Source of the DNA: Candidatus Saccharimonadota bacterium
Lineage (GTDB): Bacteria; Patescibacteriota; Saccharimonadia; Saccharimonadales; Saccharimonadaceae
Reading direction: 5' to 3'
Assembly: GCA_017514765.1 (NCBI GenBank)
Contig: JAFWIU010000006.1
Location: 1 to 37,132, forward strand
Length of the DNA stretch: 37,132 nt
Notes under the pieces: generated by a model
What the model was told of the DNA's origin: nothing
The model's database searches: none
What the model saw: the letters and a program-made list of their open reading frames with translations, nothing else
Program-made: the position numbers and the translations under genes
In this document: one piece after another, positions 28,786 through 37,033 of the stretch
How the letters are laid out: every line of letters begins with the position of its first letter
Numbering within the stretch: position 1 is the stretch's first letter

Positions 28786-29970
28786 ATGGTTAACTCAAAT
28801 AATGCATTCAAAAAACAGCCAGGCGAAAAAGCCAGCGAAATTGCTATCAGGTGTTTAGTGGCAATTATAATATTAGATGTCATCATGGCGTTTATTGCCA
28901 TCTTAATCCCAGACAATAGCTTCACTCTGGTCAAACTATACGCGTCCTTTGCTCTCTTTCTTCTACCCATCCTCATCACAATCGGCAATCTAAGATATAT
29001 TGAACGTTACAATATGGCAACCAAAGTTTTTTCATGGATCAGTATCGCCTGTAGTGTTCTCTTCATTCTTCTAGGTTTAGTACTTATCTGGAACGGCAAT
29101 AGCGTATCCGCACTTGACACTGCGAATGATATACCATCATCCAACTATTCCACCAACGATACACAAACAGAACACCTCCCCGCCTATATAACCAAAGACT
29201 ACGACGATGATAGTGACTCATATGATTACGACGACGACTATTATTATGATAACTATGATTATGACGACGATTACTACGATTATGATGATGATTACGATGA
29301 TTACTACGACTATAAGTACAATTACGATTACGTAGCGCCCATCAACAACACGCCATATTACACTATAGGCAGCTCATCTATAGCAACCTCCATCTCTCCA
29401 ACTTTAAAAGCCTACCTCGTCTCCCTCATTATGATGCTTTCTACCTTTTTCATCGCATCTTGTTTGAAATACAAAAATAGCTCTGTGCTGATTATCGGTC
29501 TTAAGATTGCTTCTATCGTTTGTATTGCCTGTTGCTGCCTTGTGGCAATATCATTTTTACTCTTCCCAATTCCATTTAGCGAAATGGCTGTCAGATTTGC
29601 CATCCTAGCCGTAGTTTTATCAAATAGTGGATTTGACTCGTGGCTAGCCCTCATCATTATCGCCCACAAAGAAAAACACAAAGTATCGAACAACGAAGCC
29701 AAAATCCCCCAAGACAAACACCCAGCCACAGCCAGTCCAGACACTCCAGCCATCACTCCAGAACCAACCCCAACCGATACAACAACCTCGAAGCCAACCC
29801 CAACTGACACGACACCAACCGCCTCAAAGCCAGCTCCAAGCGACACACTAACCACCTCTGAGCCAACCCCGAGCAACACACCATCAACTCAGGGACCAGC
29901 TACGACCGATACGGCTTCAACCTCAGAGCCATCTCCAACTACCGACACCCACCCCACTCCAGAAGCGTGA
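28786..29970 (+). CDS. Polytopic membrane protein with Asp/Tyr tract and Pro/Thr tail
   Basis: 394 aa, family not recognised. Helices lie at about 20-41, 47-68, 81-103, 208-227, 232-260 and 266-293, giving six membrane segments. Between helices 3 and 4 lies a ~100-residue loop whose centre (137-183) is almost only Asp and Tyr (e.g. YDYDDDYYYDNYDYDDDYYD). With a cytoplasmic N-terminus this loop would be outside the cell. From about 300 the tail is Thr/Pro/Ser-rich with recurring units like SKPTPTDTT and SEPTPSNT, probably disordered. The Asp/Tyr tract could bind cations or basic surfaces, which is inference. It ends 12 nt before the GtrA-GT2 gene. Confidence 0.8.
   Translation: MVNSNNAFKKQPGEKASEIAIRCLVAIIILDVIMAFIAILIPDNSFTLVKLYASFALFLLPILITIGNLRYIERYNMATKVFSWISIACSVLFILLGLVLIWNGNSVSALDTANDIPSSNYSTNDTQTEHLPAYITKDYDDDSDSYDYDDDYYYDNYDYDDDYYDYDDDYDDYYDYKYNYDYVAPINNTPYYTIGSSSIATSISPTLKAYLVSLIMMLSTFFIASCLKYKNSSVLIIGLKIASIVCIACCCLVAISFLLFPIPFSEMAVRFAILAVVLSNSGFDSWLALIIIAHKEKHKVSNNEAKIPQDKHPATASPDTPAITPEPTPTDTTTSKPTPTDTTPTASKPAPSDTLTTSEPTPSNTPSTQGPATTDTASTSEPSPTTDTHPTPEA
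29203..29330 (+). repeat. Low-complexity GAY/TAY codon tract
   Basis: Almost every codon is GAC, GAT, TAC or TAT. Codons vary between Asp-Tyr units, so this is not a pure microsatellite; selection on the peptide is more likely than recent slippage. Confidence 0.75.
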
Positions 29971-29982: not shown

Positions 29983-31455
29983 ATGAACTCAATCAACAAT
30001 TCGGCCGTAAAACTCAACAAAGATGTTAAGACCAGTCAGCATGCCACACGTTACTTTTTCGTCGGTGTAACCGTCACTGTTTTTAACTATATTCTCTATG
30101 CTATTCTGTCAAATCTTCTCATCAAAGACAATAATCTCATTTGGCTCTCCAGCCTCATCGCTACCGTTATAACCACTATTGTCGCTTATATTGCTCACTC
30201 CAAGATTACTTGGAAAGAACGCCACGTCACCAAAGCCTCTATTATTCGCTTCTTCATCTGGAACGCCCTAATCACCATTATTATCAGCCCCACCCTTACT
30301 CAACTGTTTAGCCTACTCACCCCACTTTACGAATTTGTCTATAATATCACAAATTCCATCCATCTTCCCTTCACCTATGAATTCGTCCTCACCACTGGAG
30401 CATTCACACTTACTTCGATCGTTATTATGGTTCTCAATTTCCTCTTTTACGATAAATTCGTCTTTCCTAAATCTAAATCTAGCAAAGCATATTCCTCATG
30501 CAATGCCTTTCCAGACGTCAAAGTCTCCGTTATCATTCCTGTTTACAATACTGCCAAATACCTTCCCGCATGCCTAGATTCTGTCCTCGCTGAAACACAC
30601 CGTGACCTCGAAGTCATCTGCGTCAATGATGGCTCAACCGACAAATCTCCCACAATTCTCAAAAAATACGTTAACCAAGATTCCCGCATCAAAGTCATTA
30701 ACCAAAAAAACCAAGGTCTTTCCGCCGCTAGAAACGCCGGATTAAAAACTGCCACCGGCGATTACATTACCTTTATTGATTCCGACGATGAAGTTAAACC
30801 CGAGATGATAGAAAGCCTGCTAAAAGCCCTAAAAGATTCTCAAGCCGGTATCGCCGCCTGCTCGTTTGCAGAATCCTTCCCTAGTGGCAAAATCAAAAGC
30901 TTCAACAAAAATTACCCGGAAACAACTTACAATACTGAAAACGCACTAAAAGCCATGCTAAAGGAAATTGGCTTCAACGTTACCGCCACCATGAAATTAT
31001 TCTCCAGAAACACTTTAAAAGGCGTCAAATTCCCCATCGGTAAACTCCATGAAGATGTCGGCACTACCTATAAAGCAATTCTAAAAGCCAAAAACCTTAT
31101 TTTCGTCCCAGAAGACTATTATGTTTACCACCATCACGACTCTTCAATCATTAACAATTTTTCTGACCAAAAGTTCGACCTTATTACTCTCACCGACCAA
31201 ATGTGCGACGACATCGAAAAGAAATACCCAGACCTCAAAAACGCCGCCAACGAACGCCGCATGCGTGCTAGGTTTTCTATCTTACGTCAAATCCCCATTG
31301 ACCACCCCAAAGTCAAATCACTCCAAGAGTATCTCAAAACTCACCAAAAATACATCACCAAAAATCCTGAAGCCTCCAAAACCGACAAGATAGCCTTAAA
31401 ACTCGCTCTTACCAACGTCAAACTATTTCAACTCGCCTATAAGTTATTCAAATAA
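29983..31455 (+). CDS. GtrA-like membrane domain fused to GT2 glycosyltransferase
   Basis: 490 aa. Residues 20-163 are a GtrA-like domain with four helices (RYFFVGVTVTVFNYILYAIL, LIATVITTIVAYIAHSKITW, FIWNALITIIISPTL, LTSIVIMVLNFLFYDKFVF); such proteins are thought to move or hold undecaprenyl-linked sugars. From 179 a GT-A fold begins (VKVSVIIPVYNTAKYLPACL) with NDGSTD at 215-220 and the metal site DSDD at 266-269, typical of family 2. Gene order GtrA then GT2 in one chain suggests coupled transfer and flipping of a lipid-linked sugar (inference). Its last 19 bases overlap the end of convergent galE. Confidence 0.9.
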   Translation: MNSINNSAVKLNKDVKTSQHATRYFFVGVTVTVFNYILYAILSNLLIKDNNLIWLSSLIATVITTIVAYIAHSKITWKERHVTKASIIRFFIWNALITIIISPTLTQLFSLLTPLYEFVYNITNSIHLPFTYEFVLTTGAFTLTSIVIMVLNFLFYDKFVFPKSKSSKAYSSCNAFPDVKVSVIIPVYNTAKYLPACLDSVLAETHRDLEVICVNDGSTDKSPTILKKYVNQDSRIKVINQKNQGLSAARNAGLKTATGDYITFIDSDDEVKPEMIESLLKALKDSQAGIAACSFAESFPSGKIKSFNKNYPETTYNTENALKAMLKEIGFNVTATMKLFSRNTLKGVKFPIGKLHEDVGTTYKAILKAKNLIFVPEDYYVYHHHDSSIINNFSDQKFDLITLTDQMCDDIEKKYPDLKNAANERRMRARFSILRQIPIDHPKVKSLQEYLKTHQKYITKNPEASKTDKIALKLALTNVKLFQLAYKLFK

Positions 31456-32490: not shown

Positions 32491-34389
32491 ATGTTTATTG
32501 TTGATTTCCTTGGTTGGATTATGAAATTATGTTACAACATGGTTGGTAACTACGGCGTCGCAATCATTCTCTTTACCCTAGTCAGCAAAATCATCCTACT
32601 CCCCATTTCAATCTGGGTGCAAAAAAACTCCATCAAAATGGTCAAAATGCAGCCAGAAATCAATCAACTTAAAACCAAATATTTCGGCGACAAAGATACC
32701 ATCGCTGAAGAAGAATCTAAAATCTATAAAAAATATAAATATAATCCCCTTGCTTCTCTCGTCCCACTCGTTGCCCAAATCATCCTGCTTCTCGGTGTAG
32801 TCGAAATCGTCAAGAATCCTAGCCTTTACATCGGCGTCGAAAATCTCGATTTCAATTTCCTTGGTTTTGATCTTCGTTGGATCGCTATCGAAAACGGCGG
32901 CACTGCTATTTGGATTCCAGTTATCGCCGGACTTTCCGCTCTTGCACTTTGTATCGGTCAAAACATCATGAACCCTCTCCAAGCCGAACAATCCAAGTGG
33001 AACAAATACGGCATGCTAGTTTTATCAGTTGGTCTTTCAATCTATCTGGGTACATTTGTAACCGCCGGCGTTGCTCTCTACTGGACTGCTAGCAATCTCA
33101 TGGCCATTCTACAGCAATGGCTACTTAATATTTTCATCAATCCTAAAAAACACATCGATTACAAAGCTCTCGAAAAATCACGGGCCGAACTTAAAGAGCT
33201 CCAAGATATTAGCAAAACAAATAAACGCACTAAAGAACAAGTCAAAAAAGAAAAAGCCGATTACAAACGTTTCTTTTCAATCGTTAATAAAAAACTCGTC
33301 TTTTATTCCGAAAGCAATGGCTTTTATAAGTATTACAAAGGGATGATTGAATACATTTTAAAAAATACCAACCTCACTATTCATTACATCACCAGCGATT
33401 ATAATGATCAAATTTTCGAACTGGCCAAAACCGAAAAACACATCAAACCTTACTATATTGAAGAAAAGAAGCTCATCACTTTAATGATGAAAATGGACGC
33501 CGACGTAGTCGCCATGACTATGCCAGACATTAATAACTATCACATTAAACGCAGTTATATCCGTAAAGACATCGAGTACGTTTATATCCCACATGGCATT
33601 GATAGTCCAAATCTCACAATGCGTAAAGGCTCAATGGATAATTACGATTCAGTCTTTGTCACCGGCAAATATCAACGCGAAGAATGTGAAAAAACCAACA
33701 AAGTCTATAATCTTAAAGATCGCAAAATCATCAATCTAGGCTATCCTCTACTGGATGAAATGATTACCGATTACAAAAAATCCTCTAAGAAAACCACCAA
33801 GAAAAAAACCATTATGATTGCGCCGTCTTGGCAAAAGGATAATATCATCGACCTTTGTCTAGACCAAATCCTTGATTCCCTAAAAGGTGAAAATTATCAA
33901 GTTATCGTTCGCCCACACCCTCAGCATGTTCGTCATATGAAAGAAATGTTTGACAAAATGCAAGAAAAATACCAAGGCACTAACATTACTATCCAAACCG
34001 ACTTCTCTTCAACTGATTCCGTTTTTAATGCTGACCTCCTCATCACCGACTGGTCCAGTATCGGCTACGAATATGCTTTCACCACCGAAAAACCCGTTAT
34101 TTCTATCGATACCCCAATGAAAGTTATGAATCCTGAATACAAAAAAATTAAAGTTGAACCATTTAATATTTGGGCACGTTCCGAAATTGGTGAAGTCGTC
34201 AAGGTTGGAGATGTCAAAAACATCAACAAAACCGTCCAAAAAATCCTCAAAGATCCTAAAAAATATCAAAAAAAAATCGCTACTCTTAAAAAAGATTCGA
34301 TGTATAATTTAGGAAACAGTGCTAAAGTTGGCGCCGAGTACATTATTCAATGTGTTCAAGATAAAATTAAAGAAAGGAAGAAAAAATGA
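32491..34389 (+). CDS. YidC/Oxa1 insertase domain fused to CDP-glycerol glycerophosphotransferase
   Basis: 632 aa. Residues 1-222 align with Oxa1/YidC insertases: YGVAIILFTLVSKIILLPIS, the cytoplasmic hairpin KMQPEINQLKTKYFGDKD, YNPLASLVPLVAQIILLLGV, then helices ending in ALYWTASNLMAILQQWLL. The conserved Arg of the insertase groove is Lys33 here. A charged linker (225-262) leads to a TagB/TagF-type transferase (about 265-625) with PHGID (367-371), LGYPLLDE (416-423), APSWQKD (444-450), RPHPQH (474-479) and TDWSSIGYEYAF (519-530). These enzymes transfer glycerol or ribitol phosphate from CDP donors to make teichoic-acid-like chains. It overlaps the next gene by 4 nt, and the neighbours supply CTP-dependent activation. 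The insertase half may act as membrane anchor or as a specialised insertase. Confidence 0.92.
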   Translation: MFIVDFLGWIMKLCYNMVGNYGVAIILFTLVSKIILLPISIWVQKNSIKMVKMQPEINQLKTKYFGDKDTIAEEESKIYKKYKYNPLASLVPLVAQIILLLGVVEIVKNPSLYIGVENLDFNFLGFDLRWIAIENGGTAIWIPVIAGLSALALCIGQNIMNPLQAEQSKWNKYGMLVLSVGLSIYLGTFVTAGVALYWTASNLMAILQQWLLNIFINPKKHIDYKALEKSRAELKELQDISKTNKRTKEQVKKEKADYKRFFSIVNKKLVFYSESNGFYKYYKGMIEYILKNTNLTIHYITSDYNDQIFELAKTEKHIKPYYIEEKKLITLMMKMDADVVAMTMPDINNYHIKRSYIRKDIEYVYIPHGIDSPNLTMRKGSMDNYDSVFVTGKYQREECEKTNKVYNLKDRKIINLGYPLLDEMITDYKKSSKKTTKKKTIMIAPSWQKDNIIDLCLDQILDSLKGENYQVIVRPHPQHVRHMKEMFDKMQEKYQGTNITIQTDFSSTDSVFNADLLITDWSSIGYEYAFTTEKPVISIDTPMKVMNPEYKKIKVEPFNIWARSEIGEVVKVGDVKNINKTVQKILKDPKKYQKKIATLKKDSMYNLGNSAKVGAEYIIQCVQDKIKERKKK

Positions 34390-34604
34390 ACGAAATATTA
34401 AACTTTGGTTATATCGATCCTTCAGTTATGACCTATGCCATTCAAGCTGGAGCTGGTATTGTCATTGCGGTAGGAGCCTTCGTCGGTCTATATTTCCGAA
34501 AAACCAAGAAAAAAGTTAACAAAAAACTTGGTATCGATGAAAACAAGAACAAAGAAGTCGAATCCGACGAAATTGAAGTTAAAAGCAAGTCCAAAAAATC
34601 CTAA
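34386..34604 (+). CDS. Small single-helix membrane protein with Lys/Glu-rich tail
   Basis: 72 aa. The ATG overlaps the upstream stop (ATGA), with AAAGGAAG before it. A short outer segment (NEILNFGYIDPSVM) is followed by one helix (about 17-37, AIQAGAGIVIAVGAFVGLYF) and a highly charged cytoplasmic tail starting RKTKKKVNKKLGIDENKNKE. Tight coupling to the YidC-transferase fusion suggests a subunit or partner of it. The family is not named here. Confidence 0.8.
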   Translation: MNEILNFGYIDPSVMTYAIQAGAGIVIAVGAFVGLYFRKTKKKVNKKLGIDENKNKEVESDEIEVKSKSKKS

Positions 34605-34622: not shown

Positions 34623-35681
34623 ATGTATTACCTAAATCCAAAAATCAAAGAACTAAACCGAATATTCGACCAAAACGACAGAAGCGATTATTTACGTCTA
34701 GACTTAAATGAGAACCCAGGAGGTCTTCCTAAGGAAATTGTCAAAAAAGCTTTAGACAAAATCACACCAGAACTTGTTGCCGAATATCCAGAAACTAGGC
34801 ATTTCACAGAAGTATTAGCCAGGCACCTTCACACCGATACTTCACATCTCTGCCTAGTCAATGGTTCCGCAGAAGGTATACGCTACATTTTTGAAGCTTT
34901 TACCAGCGAAGGAGGCCGTGTCGTAGGAGTCGTTCCATCCTATTTTATGTTTCAAATATATTCGGAAATGTATGGTAGAAAATTCATTCAAGTTCCATAT
35001 GATAATAATCTAAAAATGGACGTAAATCATATTATTGATAAATTAACTGATGACACACAACTATTAATTATATTAAACCCTAATAATCCTATGGGCAATA
35101 CTTACACTGAAGCCGAATTCAAAAAAATCCTCAGTGTAGCCAAAGCCAAGCAAATCACCATCCTTATAGATGAAGCTTATCACTATTTTTATCCCAAAAC
35201 TTTTATCAAATATGCTCTAAATGATGAACATGTTTTTGTTACGCGTACCTTTTCAAAATTATTCTCTATGGCAGGATGCAGACTTGGTTACGTAGTAGGC
35301 TGGCCAGAAGGTATCAAAATGGTACAAAAGCTCTGCACACCGCACAACACCAACGTATTTGCACTAAAAATTGCCGAAGCAGTTCTTGATACGCCTGGAG
35401 CCTTAGACAAACTCATCAAGGATTTTAATGAAGGACGCAATTATTTTGTCAAATGGCTCGATCAAAATGATTATCAACACAAAGGCGAAGCTGGTAATTT
35501 TATCTTCATTAAACCAAAAACAAATGCCGACACCGTCGTCAAACGCATGAAAAAAGAAAAGAAAATTTTAATCAAAAGCTACCCAAACGTAGGCGAGCTG
35601 GGCGACTGCTTACGTATATCTATCGGTGGCAAAGAATACATGGAAAAATTTACCAAAGCATTAATAGAAATTGATAAATAG
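34623..35681 (+). CDS. HisC-like PLP-dependent aminotransferase (or decarboxylase)
   Basis: 352 aa, fold type I class II. LRLDLNENPGG (24-34) and NPNNPMGN (152-159) are typical of histidinol-phosphate aminotransferase and of its relative threonine-phosphate decarboxylase (CobD). IDEAYHYF (182-189) holds the PLP Asp, K212 in TFSKLFSMAGCRLGY is the Schiff-base lysine, and LRISIGG near the C-terminus carries the Arg that binds a carboxylate or phosphate. No other histidine-pathway gene is present, and the gene sits between a CDP-polyol transferase and a cytidylyltransferase. It more likely makes an amino-alcohol phosphate or amino sugar precursor for the surface polymer (inference). Confidence 0.88.
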   Translation: MYYLNPKIKELNRIFDQNDRSDYLRLDLNENPGGLPKEIVKKALDKITPELVAEYPETRHFTEVLARHLHTDTSHLCLVNGSAEGIRYIFEAFTSEGGRVVGVVPSYFMFQIYSEMYGRKFIQVPYDNNLKMDVNHIIDKLTDDTQLLIILNPNNPMGNTYTEAEFKKILSVAKAKQITILIDEAYHYFYPKTFIKYALNDEHVFVTRTFSKLFSMAGCRLGYVVGWPEGIKMVQKLCTPHNTNVFALKIAEAVLDTPGALDKLIKDFNEGRNYFVKWLDQNDYQHKGEAGNFIFIKPKTNADTVVKRMKKEKKILIKSYPNVGELGDCLRISIGGKEYMEKFTKALIEIDK

Positions 35682-35695
35682 ATAGGACTCATCAT

Positions 35696-37033
35696 ATGAA
35701 AAAAGTTATTACATACGGCTCATTCGACTTATTCCATTTCGGTCATCAGCGTTTATTGGAACGCGCAAAAGCTCTTGGCGACTATCTCATCGTAGGAGTC
35801 ACTAGTGACGATTATGATCGCGTACGCGGAAAAATCAATATTGCTCAATCGTTGGCCGAGCGTATCGCCGCAGTCAAAGCAACTGGACTCGCCGACATGG
35901 TCATCGTCGAAGAGTATGATGGTCAAAAAGTCGACGATATCAAAAAATACAACATTGATGTTTTTACCATCGGCTCAGATTGGGAAGGTAAATTTGATTA
36001 CTTAAATAACTACTGTAAAGTTGTTTATCTCGAACGTACTAAAGGCGTTTCTAGCTCAGAAATACGTTCAGAAAAACGCGCCACCAAACTCGGTCTAGCA
36101 GGAAATTCTTGTTCCTTTTTCAAAAAAATCATTGGAGAAGGTCCTTTTGTTAACGGCTTAAGTATTGTAGGTATTTGCCCTGAAAAACTACAAACTAGCG
36201 AACCGACCACTCAAGAGTTAAAAGAGTTAAATCTACAAGTCTACAAATCTTACGACACCATGTTAAAAAACGTCGATGCCGTCTATATCAAGACCAACTA
36301 CACTAGTCGCTACGATTACATCAAAAAAGCCCTCAAAGCCGGCAAAAACGTTCTTTGTGAATCACCAATTTGCCTAGATGTAAACAAATGTAAAGAACTC
36401 TTCAAGCTCGCCAAAGAAAATCATTGTGTTCTTATGGAAGCCATTCGCACTGCATACTCTACTGCTTACAAGCGTTTGGCTCTCCTCGCCGAAATTGGCA
36501 AAGTTGGGGATGTCTTGTCTATCGAAGCTACTTGCACTAGTATGCAAAGAAATGATCCTAGCCGTTTAGCAAGTCTCTATGAATGGGGACCAAATGCCAT
36601 TTTGCCTATTTTCCAAATACTCGGAACTAAATACAAATCCAAGACCTTCATCACTCGTCAAAGTTCTAAAGAAATCAAAGGTGATGCTTTTACTAAAATT
36701 AATTTCGTCTACGAACACGCCACCGCTTCAGCGACCGTAGCAGAAGGTGCTAAATCTGAAGGCGATCTTGTTATTGCTGGTACTAAAGCGTATATTTACG
36801 TTCCCGCACCCTGGTGGAAGACCGAATACTTTGAGTTGCGTTACGAAAATCCTGCATATAATCGTCGTTATTTCTATCAACTAGACGGCGAAGGAATTCG
36901 TTACGAGCTAGTTGAATTTCTCCAAGCTATTCAAGACAGTAAAGATGTTCCCCGCATCGATAGAAATACCACCTTAGCAATTTGCCAAACCATGCAAGAT
37001 TTCAAAGAACGTAAAGACCTCATAGAAATCTAA
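35696..37033 (+). CDS. Glycerol-phosphate-type cytidylyltransferase fused to Gfo/Idh/MocA-like domain
   Basis: 445 aa. Residues 1-125 are a TagD-like nucleotidyltransferase: TYGSFDLFHFGHQRLLERAK with the CTP-binding HFGH at 14-17, and RTKGVSSSEIR (114-124), the variant of the RTxGISTT signature. It would join CTP and a polyol phosphate to give a CDP-polyol. From about 130 a Gfo/Idh/MocA-type NAD(P) oxidoreductase follows (AVYIKTNYTSRYDYIKKALKAGKNVLCESP). Its glycine-rich loop is degenerate (LAGNSCSFF at 134-142) and the EKP motif is ESP (222-224), so normal cofactor chemistry is doubtful. It ends the run of four + strand genes and supplies the donor for the CDP-glycerol-type transferase upstream. 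Confidence 0.9.
   Translation: MKKVITYGSFDLFHFGHQRLLERAKALGDYLIVGVTSDDYDRVRGKINIAQSLAERIAAVKATGLADMVIVEEYDGQKVDDIKKYNIDVFTIGSDWEGKFDYLNNYCKVVYLERTKGVSSSEIRSEKRATKLGLAGNSCSFFKKIIGEGPFVNGLSIVGICPEKLQTSEPTTQELKELNLQVYKSYDTMLKNVDAVYIKTNYTSRYDYIKKALKAGKNVLCESPICLDVNKCKELFKLAKENHCVLMEAIRTAYSTAYKRLALLAEIGKVGDVLSIEATCTSMQRNDPSRLASLYEWGPNAILPIFQILGTKYKSKTFITRQSSKEIKGDAFTKINFVYEHATASATVAEGAKSEGDLVIAGTKAYIYVPAPWWKTEYFELRYENPAYNRRYFYQLDGEGIRYELVEFLQAIQDSKDVPRIDRNTTLAICQTMQDFKERKDLIEI

Follow-up and report, generated by a model that had tools for sequence, protein, structure and literature searches.

A reading frame in the genome of a Candidatus Saccharimonadota bacterium joins a YidC/Oxa1 membrane domain to a TagB/TagF-type CDP-alcohol phosphotransferase, and the genome data give good support to the view that these two domains form one system with two further modules, an LtaS/EptA-like phosphotransferase and a small membrane protein with a YIDP motif. 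In our estimate there is an even chance that the four modules act together across the membrane to put CDP-activated phospho- and phosphonoalcohols on the cell surface, through lipid loading, translocation by the YidC domain, and transfer by the LtaS-like enzyme. The protein families involved are known; what appears to be new is how they are combined and how repeatedly the YidC fold is linked to the other members, and searches of open-access papers found neither the fusion nor the system described. Overall, this suggests that bacteria may have reused a protein-insertion fold to build or decorate surface polymers.

The YidC-transferase fusion and its spread

The fusion is encoded on the forward strand at positions 32491-34389 of the window (the whole stretch of DNA analyzed, 37,132 nucleotides), where 632 codons are open in a single uninterrupted frame. 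It consists of a YidC domain (residues 1-222, 32491-33156), a charged linker (residues 223-261, 33157-33273), and a CDP-alcohol phosphotransferase domain (residues 262-632, 33274-34386), all on the forward strand. Both domains score above the curated Pfam cut-offs, 60KD_IMP (PF02096) over residues 21-213 (E 4e-32) and Glyphos_transf (PF04464) over residues 265-543 (E 7e-16), and an AlphaFold model built from a 58-row alignment of natural homologues (mean pLDDT 89) contains two folds. In the first, five membrane helices with a cytosolic hairpin after helix one make up the fold of the YidC superfamily. This N-terminal half matches Bacillus halodurans YidC (3wo7) with a TM-score by target of 0.71 at 23% identity, with E. 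coli YidC also among the best solved structures, and the best match for the C-terminal half is the wall teichoic acid polymerase TagF (3l7k, VIA Z 22). Used as a profile against solved structures, the whole fusion retrieved YidC only, and the transferase half alone retrieved Cps3D, TarL, and TagF. Across 58 fusions, H368 (in PHG), RPHP at 474-477, and DWS at 520-522 are invariant in the transferase domain, and the PHG, RPHP, and D-x-S motifs together with the TagF-type GT-B fold place it among the CDP-alcohol phosphotransferases. Invariant residues of the YidC domain in the same set are T29, Q96, S183, Y197, W198, and N202. Mean pairwise identity is 58.3% in the YidC half, 59.0% in the enzyme half, and 46% in the linker, the least conserved part.

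A sequence-only reading of the window had proposed this one-frame fusion and had placed Lys33 at the position of the YidC groove arginine. Both points stand, the latter by profile alignment to the E. coli and B. halodurans proteins: residue 33 is lysine in 57 fusions and arginine in one, and thus basic in 58 of 58. The groove arginine is considered essential in Bacillus SpoIIIJ, and the fusion has the positively charged groove residue expected of insertases, any insertase function being putative. However, lysine is not special to the fusion, because the housekeeping YidC of the same genus has it too; with Asn or Tyr present in some Bacillota YidC, we dropped Lys33 as a sign of specialization. 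Asn or Tyr at this position was seen, for instance, in the housekeeping-like YidC of two Lachnospiraceae genomes (L151, L156).

The idea that the fusion is instead the housekeeping insertase of its genome, or two genes joined by a frameshift or misassembly, retains a negligible probability and is refuted by three lines of evidence. Its one attraction is the patchy spread of the fusion: in a sample of 250 genomes of a single Lachnospiraceae family, about 10 gave fusion-type matches. Against it, 80 other loci encode the fusion, contrary to the refuting condition set by the sequence-only reading (no other genome with the fusion), and the same frame is found in these loci and in 12 of 147 genomes of the genus. 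Next, the window genome (0.70 Mb, 99% complete) holds a separate yidC of 376 aa (G000:C5:114418), followed by a KH/R3H (Jag-like) gene. The second yidC that the earlier reading proposed to look for is present, although neither rnpA nor rpmH was seen in the short flank examined. Finally, an AU test rejects a grouping of the fused YidC with the housekeeping YidC of the genus (p 6e-46). The fused domain is thus neither the sole YidC of its genome nor a member of the genus's YidC group, and a further YidC copy was found besides the fusion in 29 of the 32 genomes checked.

The 80 loci come from a scan of about 85,000 species genomes and belong mostly to rumen Saccharibacteria and gut Bacillota. All except two (L098 and L137, both cut by contig ends) match the query across both domains. 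Identity to the window fusion is 71-98% in rumen and gut Saccharibacteria and about 47-67% in many Bacillota, and the outlying hosts are one bin labeled Chloroflexi (38%) and one Coriobacteriales (35%). Among the gut Bacillota that carry the module is the cultured, non-pathogenic Lachnospiraceae strain GAM79 (L135). In phylogenetic trees, the fusions of Saccharibacteria form one clade within the Bacillota sequences (SH-aLRT 100), and the fused YidC domain groups with Bacillota YidC. Because of this placement and the patchy spread, including only 12 of the 147 genus genomes, we infer that the fusion gene was acquired by transfer from Bacillota, i.e., that ruminant Saccharibacteria, with their minimal genomes, obtained such a system from these bacteria. 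In the window, GC content drops from about 0.44 to about 0.37 at the start of the gene block. The fusion protein had no match on the viral contigs scanned, and plasmid records yielded canonical YidC only, for example in the gene order yidD-yidC-jag of a C. difficile plasmid, and none of the matching places spanned 80% of the query. Some members of the system carry extra domains: L111 (5431-7896) encodes a fusion extended at its N-terminus to 821 aa, and L119 (3477-5975) encodes an LtaS-like protein of 832 aa with a tail that matches DUF6805 close to the cut-off.

Partner genes, donor genes, and module fusions

Gene neighborhoods were compared for 81 loci, with up to 6 kb on each side and many of them cut by contig ends. 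The main partner of the fusion, which the sequence-only reading missed and whose gene lies outside the window, belongs to the sulfatase/alkaline-phosphatase superfamily (PF00884) and is a membrane protein of 530-700 aa. Its gene is present in 52 of the 81 loci, usually directly upstream of the fusion, with a 4-base overlap in several loci and often in two to four tandem copies. The protein has five hydrophobic segments followed by an outer domain, and D208, T245, H387, H392, D445, and H446 are invariant (n = 27), a set that fits the nucleophile and metal ligands of enzymes in the LtaS/EptA group. A threonine nucleophile is typical of the phosphate-group transferases of this superfamily and not of true sulfatases. 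Profile comparison matched LtaS (2w5q, E 2e-7), and a fold search retrieved PbgA/YejM, EptA, and LtaS; the five helices, alkaline-phosphatase-type outer domain, threonine nucleophile, and metal ligands assign the partner to the LtaS/EptA-type phosphotransferases. In the window genome it is encoded at C5:119507-121156, on another contig than the fusion, and the two are the only PF00884 and the only PF04464 protein of that genome, respectively. Both genes occur in exactly the same 12 of 147 genus genomes, which are related and do not represent 12 independent events. Among 24 genomes without an adjacent LtaS-like gene at the fusion locus, 21 carry one elsewhere, including all 8 Saccharibacteria.

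The next gene in the window (34386-34604, forward strand) encodes a 72-aa, one-helix membrane protein with homologues in fusion loci and the conserved motif GYIDPSVMTY...RKxKKKxxxKLGIDENxNKEVESD; its start overlaps the stop codon of the fusion by 4 bases (ATGA, 34386-34389). YIDP proteins are encoded in 59 of the 81 loci, as a separate gene next to the fusion in 49 and as part of the LtaS-like protein in 10, and in many homologues a signal peptide ends immediately ahead of the YIDP motif. Near the module, a short gene for an S26 signal peptidase was observed in 20 of the 81 loci (e.g., L078 2203-2652 and L128 8068-8616). The 72-aa protein looks like a subunit rather than a client, because it is fused to other members elsewhere.

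Considering these fusions together, the modules occur in five arrangements. The YidC-transferase fusion, the LtaS-like protein, and the YIDP protein are separate in the window and most loci (arrangement i). Elsewhere, a single protein of about 1198 aa combines the LtaS-like, YidC, and transferase domains in that order (ii; L108, L126-L128), or one of 1420 aa combines YidC, transferase, and LtaS-like domains, all three recognized by Pfam (iii; L177). In the 10 loci with a YIDP-LtaS-like fusion, this protein lies beside the YidC-transferase fusion (iv). Lastly, a YIDP-transferase protein is found directly beside a YidC-LtaS-like protein (v; L179, L180, L194-L201, L204, L205), with the adjacency in L200, L204, and L205 taken from genome coordinates and the YidC and Sulfatase domains of L180 confirmed by Pfam. 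Stand-alone transferase relatives in one Lachnospiraceae family follow the last pattern, with 10 of 12 directly beside a YidC-LtaS-like gene in a 250-genome sample. At the groove arginine position, the YidC domain of arrangement v has Asn or Gln in 14 of 14 cases, and its groove lacks the charged residue. All five arrangements are compatible with one topology, predicted from hydrophobic segments and the topology of the families, in which the transferase is inside, the LtaS-like domain outside, and the N-terminus of the YIDP protein out. We consider these varied fusions the strongest evidence that the YidC fold would be in a stable complex with these enzymes. A model of the triple fusion (pLDDT 84) had a pTM of 0.52, too low for the relative placement of its domains to be interpreted.

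The YidC domain that is fused to an LtaS-like domain in L178-L180, L194-L201, L204, and L205 belongs to a divergent family with Asn or Gln at the groove position, and the transferase beside it bears an N-terminal YIDPGTGS membrane helix. As far as we could find, this divergent family itself appears to be undescribed. A tree suggested that YidC was recruited twice, once for the fusion family and once for the YidC-LtaS-like family; this is unsupported, as an AU test does not reject a single clade (p 0.42).

Candidate donor genes follow the 72-aa gene. A HisC/CobD-like PLP enzyme (34623-35681, forward strand; PF00155, closest solved relatives HisC) is followed by a TagD-like CTP:glycerol-3-phosphate-type cytidylyltransferase fused to a Gfo/Idh/MocA-type domain (35696-37033, forward strand; PF01467 and PF01408; B. 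subtilis TagD 1coz, E 4e-34). The PLP enzyme likely makes an amino-alcohol phosphate that the product of the next gene activates, and the TagD-like fusion likely makes the CDP-activated donor. The donor in the window is likely of the glycerol or amino-alcohol type, and the TagD-like domain suggests a CDP-glycerol-like donor for the transferase. This PLP family is found beside the fusion in 5 loci, and a related PLP domain is fused to a LicC-like nucleotidyltransferase in 21; the combination of TagD-like and Gfo/Idh/MocA-type domains recurs in 6 of the 81 loci. Overall, a cytidylyl- or related nucleotidyltransferase is nearby in 45 of the 81 loci, of LicC-like or TagD-like kind or fused to PEP mutase. 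Some loci encode PEP mutase and phosphonopyruvate decarboxylase, both above NCBIfam cut-offs, along with an aminoethylphosphonate-transaminase-like enzyme or an iron alcohol dehydrogenase. Taken together, these genes point to phospho- and phosphonoalcohols, activated with CDP or CMP and differing between strains, as the probable donors. TagGH-like ABC genes lie near 12-17 of the 81 loci, mostly in Saccharibacteria.

Other genes were noted in passing. A stand-alone transferase relative from another candidate-phyla genome (L033 1498-2649, reverse strand) sits in a phosphonate cluster that lacks a YidC domain, where its neighbors are an iron alcohol dehydrogenase and a fragment resembling phosphonopyruvate decarboxylase. 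About 1 kb from the window fusion, a GtrA-type membrane domain is fused to a GT2 glycosyltransferase (29983-31455, forward strand); this protein follows the same logic of a flippase-like domain joined to a cytosolic transferase, from known families, and is outside the conserved module. The gene before it (28786-29970, forward strand) encodes a predicted membrane protein of 394 aa that contains a long stretch rich in Asp and Tyr, ends in a tail rich in Pro and Thr, and gave no Pfam or NCBIfam match.

A proposed route to the cell surface and its alternatives

In the route that we propose, cytidylyltransferases encoded nearby would generate CDP-X, where P-X, depending on the neighborhood, may be glycerol phosphate, an amino-alcohol phosphate, or aminoethyl- or hydroxyethylphosphonate. 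Given its fold, motifs, and topology, the TagB/TagF-type domain would then use CDP-X to load P-X, at the cytosolic face, onto an acceptor that is a membrane lipid or is linked to one. The polar groove of the YidC domain, open to the bilayer, would pass the lipid headgroup outward in a flippase or scramblase role, and the LtaS/EptA-like enzyme, with the threonine nucleophile and metal ligands that its fold and residues predict outside, would transfer P-X from the lipid to an extracellular glycan. The YIDP membrane protein may be the structural subunit that holds the complex together, as its fusions suggest. It counts against the route that, to our knowledge, this family has no known lipid-linked P-X intermediate. 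We rate the chance that the Oxa1/YidC fold serves as the flippase for a lipid-linked phospho- or phosphonoalcohol, between the cytosolic transferase and the extracellular LtaS-like transferase, as slightly below even. Lipid scrambling in vitro has been shown for YidC and other insertases of the Oxa1 family (PMC10491306), and the domain is probably more than an anchor because it is conserved like the enzyme half, keeps invariant groove residues, and has a basic residue 33. Also against this route, the stand-alone transferase of L033 indicates that the transferase can act without a YidC domain, and the basic groove residue is replaced in arrangement v. At some Saccharibacteria loci, the TagGH-like ABC exporters could carry the product instead.

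The sequence-only reading had envisaged an Oxa1-fold protein in surface-polymer synthesis. System membership is strongly supported by the fusions and links to the same transferase and LtaS-like enzyme, and a YidC step would be the more conjectural part. Of the three uses that it offered for the YidC domain, reuse of the groove for an amphiphilic intermediate would be the best fit, and the other two are less likely. Insertion of the 72-aa partner is weakened by its fusion to the LtaS-like protein in 10 loci and by the fusion of a related helix to the transferase, and simple tethering by the conservation of the YidC half and its polar groove residues.

A broader insertase or chaperone role, in which the YidC domain would insert or assemble the YIDP protein, the LtaS-like enzyme, or both, and the fused transferase would only position it, is unlikely in our judgment, with some evidence in its favor. 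YidC proteins are a family of insertases, the small partner has one helix and is of the kind that YidC inserts, its gene and that of the fusion overlap at the latter's stop codon, and a signal peptidase is encoded nearby in 20 of the 81 loci. However, fusions in other genomes join the partners with one another and with the YidC protein, as would suit stable subunits better than clients, a further YidC is available in nearly all genomes checked, and the insertase arginine position is Asn or Gln in arrangement v. That the domain merely holds the transferase at the membrane and organizes the complex, with an idle groove, seems rather unlikely: it evolves as slowly as the enzyme, T29, Q96, Y197, W198, and N202 are kept in 58 of 58 fusions, and the YIDP protein could provide an anchor and does so in arrangement v, where a YidC domain is still kept on the other protein. 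CDP-alcohol transferases are nonetheless membrane-bound, and the transferase of the fusion has no other membrane domain. Finally, the transferase may make or prime a lipid-linked polymer that a TagGH-like ABC transporter exports, with the LtaS-like enzyme a separate polymerase or hydrolase and YidC aiding local assembly only. The ABC genes near some loci and the TagF-type polymerase fold of the transferase fit such a scheme, which we regard as improbable, since most Bacillota loci keep the LtaS-like partner without a nearby ABC exporter and the LtaS-like domain is directly fused to YidC in other genomes.

The repeated fusions link the Oxa1/YidC fold to surface-glycan chemistry and are hard to explain if this fold only inserts proteins. 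Insertases were recently shown to scramble lipids in vitro (PMC10491306), and the system would offer a defined substrate and partner set for probing a biological use of that activity. If true, the flippase reading would give a new function to a membrane-protein fold that ranks among the oldest, within a transmembrane system that brings CDP-activated groups to the surface instead of C55-P sugars. For many gut-bacterial clusters that make surface phosphonates and phosphoalcohols, the system would also identify the transfer step that is missing. Should the YidC domain prove to flip a lipid-linked group, a categorically new system is possible.

Relation to known systems

Each part of the module has well-known relatives. 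With the YidC/SpoIIIJ/Oxa1/EMC3/GET1/TMCO1 superfamily, the fusion shares a complete five-helix core (23% identity and a TM-score of 0.7 to B. halodurans YidC), and it differs in being joined to surface-polymer enzymes and in not being the housekeeping copy. Its transferase has the fold (VIA Z 22 to TagF) and the PHG, RPHP, and D-x-S motifs of TagB, TagF, and TarL (PF04464); unlike in these proteins, the membrane part is an N-terminal YidC domain, and the transferase falls in a subfamily common to the YIDP-transferase proteins. The partner resembles LtaS, EptA, and PbgA/YejM in its five N-terminal helices, extracellular domain, threonine nucleophile, and metal ligands, but a YidC domain and a CDP-alcohol transferase are linked to it genetically and by fusion. 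We know of no report of such a link or fusion for the known members of that group.

At the pathway level, several neighborhoods share PEP mutase, Ppd, an AEP-transaminase-like enzyme, and a LicC-like enzyme with the Pnt and Lic pathways for surface phosphonate and phosphocholine (PntC, LicC; PMC6697681). The published clusters, in contrast, point to LicD-like transferases or glycosyltransferases, and neither YidC nor a sulfatase is found in the text of that paper. The closest parallel in proposed logic is three-component transmembrane glycosylation (GT-A, GtrA-type flippase, and GT-C, as in GtlA/GtcA/GtlB and CsbB/GtcA/YfhO; PMC8035078), where a lipid carrier is loaded inside and translocated, and transfer to a wall polymer takes place outside. 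Several outside enzymes can share one flippase in those systems, and tandem LtaS-like copies may likewise share one fusion. The parts are nevertheless different: in place of the GT-A C55-P sugar synthase, the GtrA/Wzx flippase, and the GT-C enzyme, the conserved components here are a CDP-alcohol transferase (PF04464), a YidC fold (PF02096), and an alkaline-phosphatase-fold enzyme (PF00884), and the group added would be a phospho- or phosphonoalcohol rather than a sugar.
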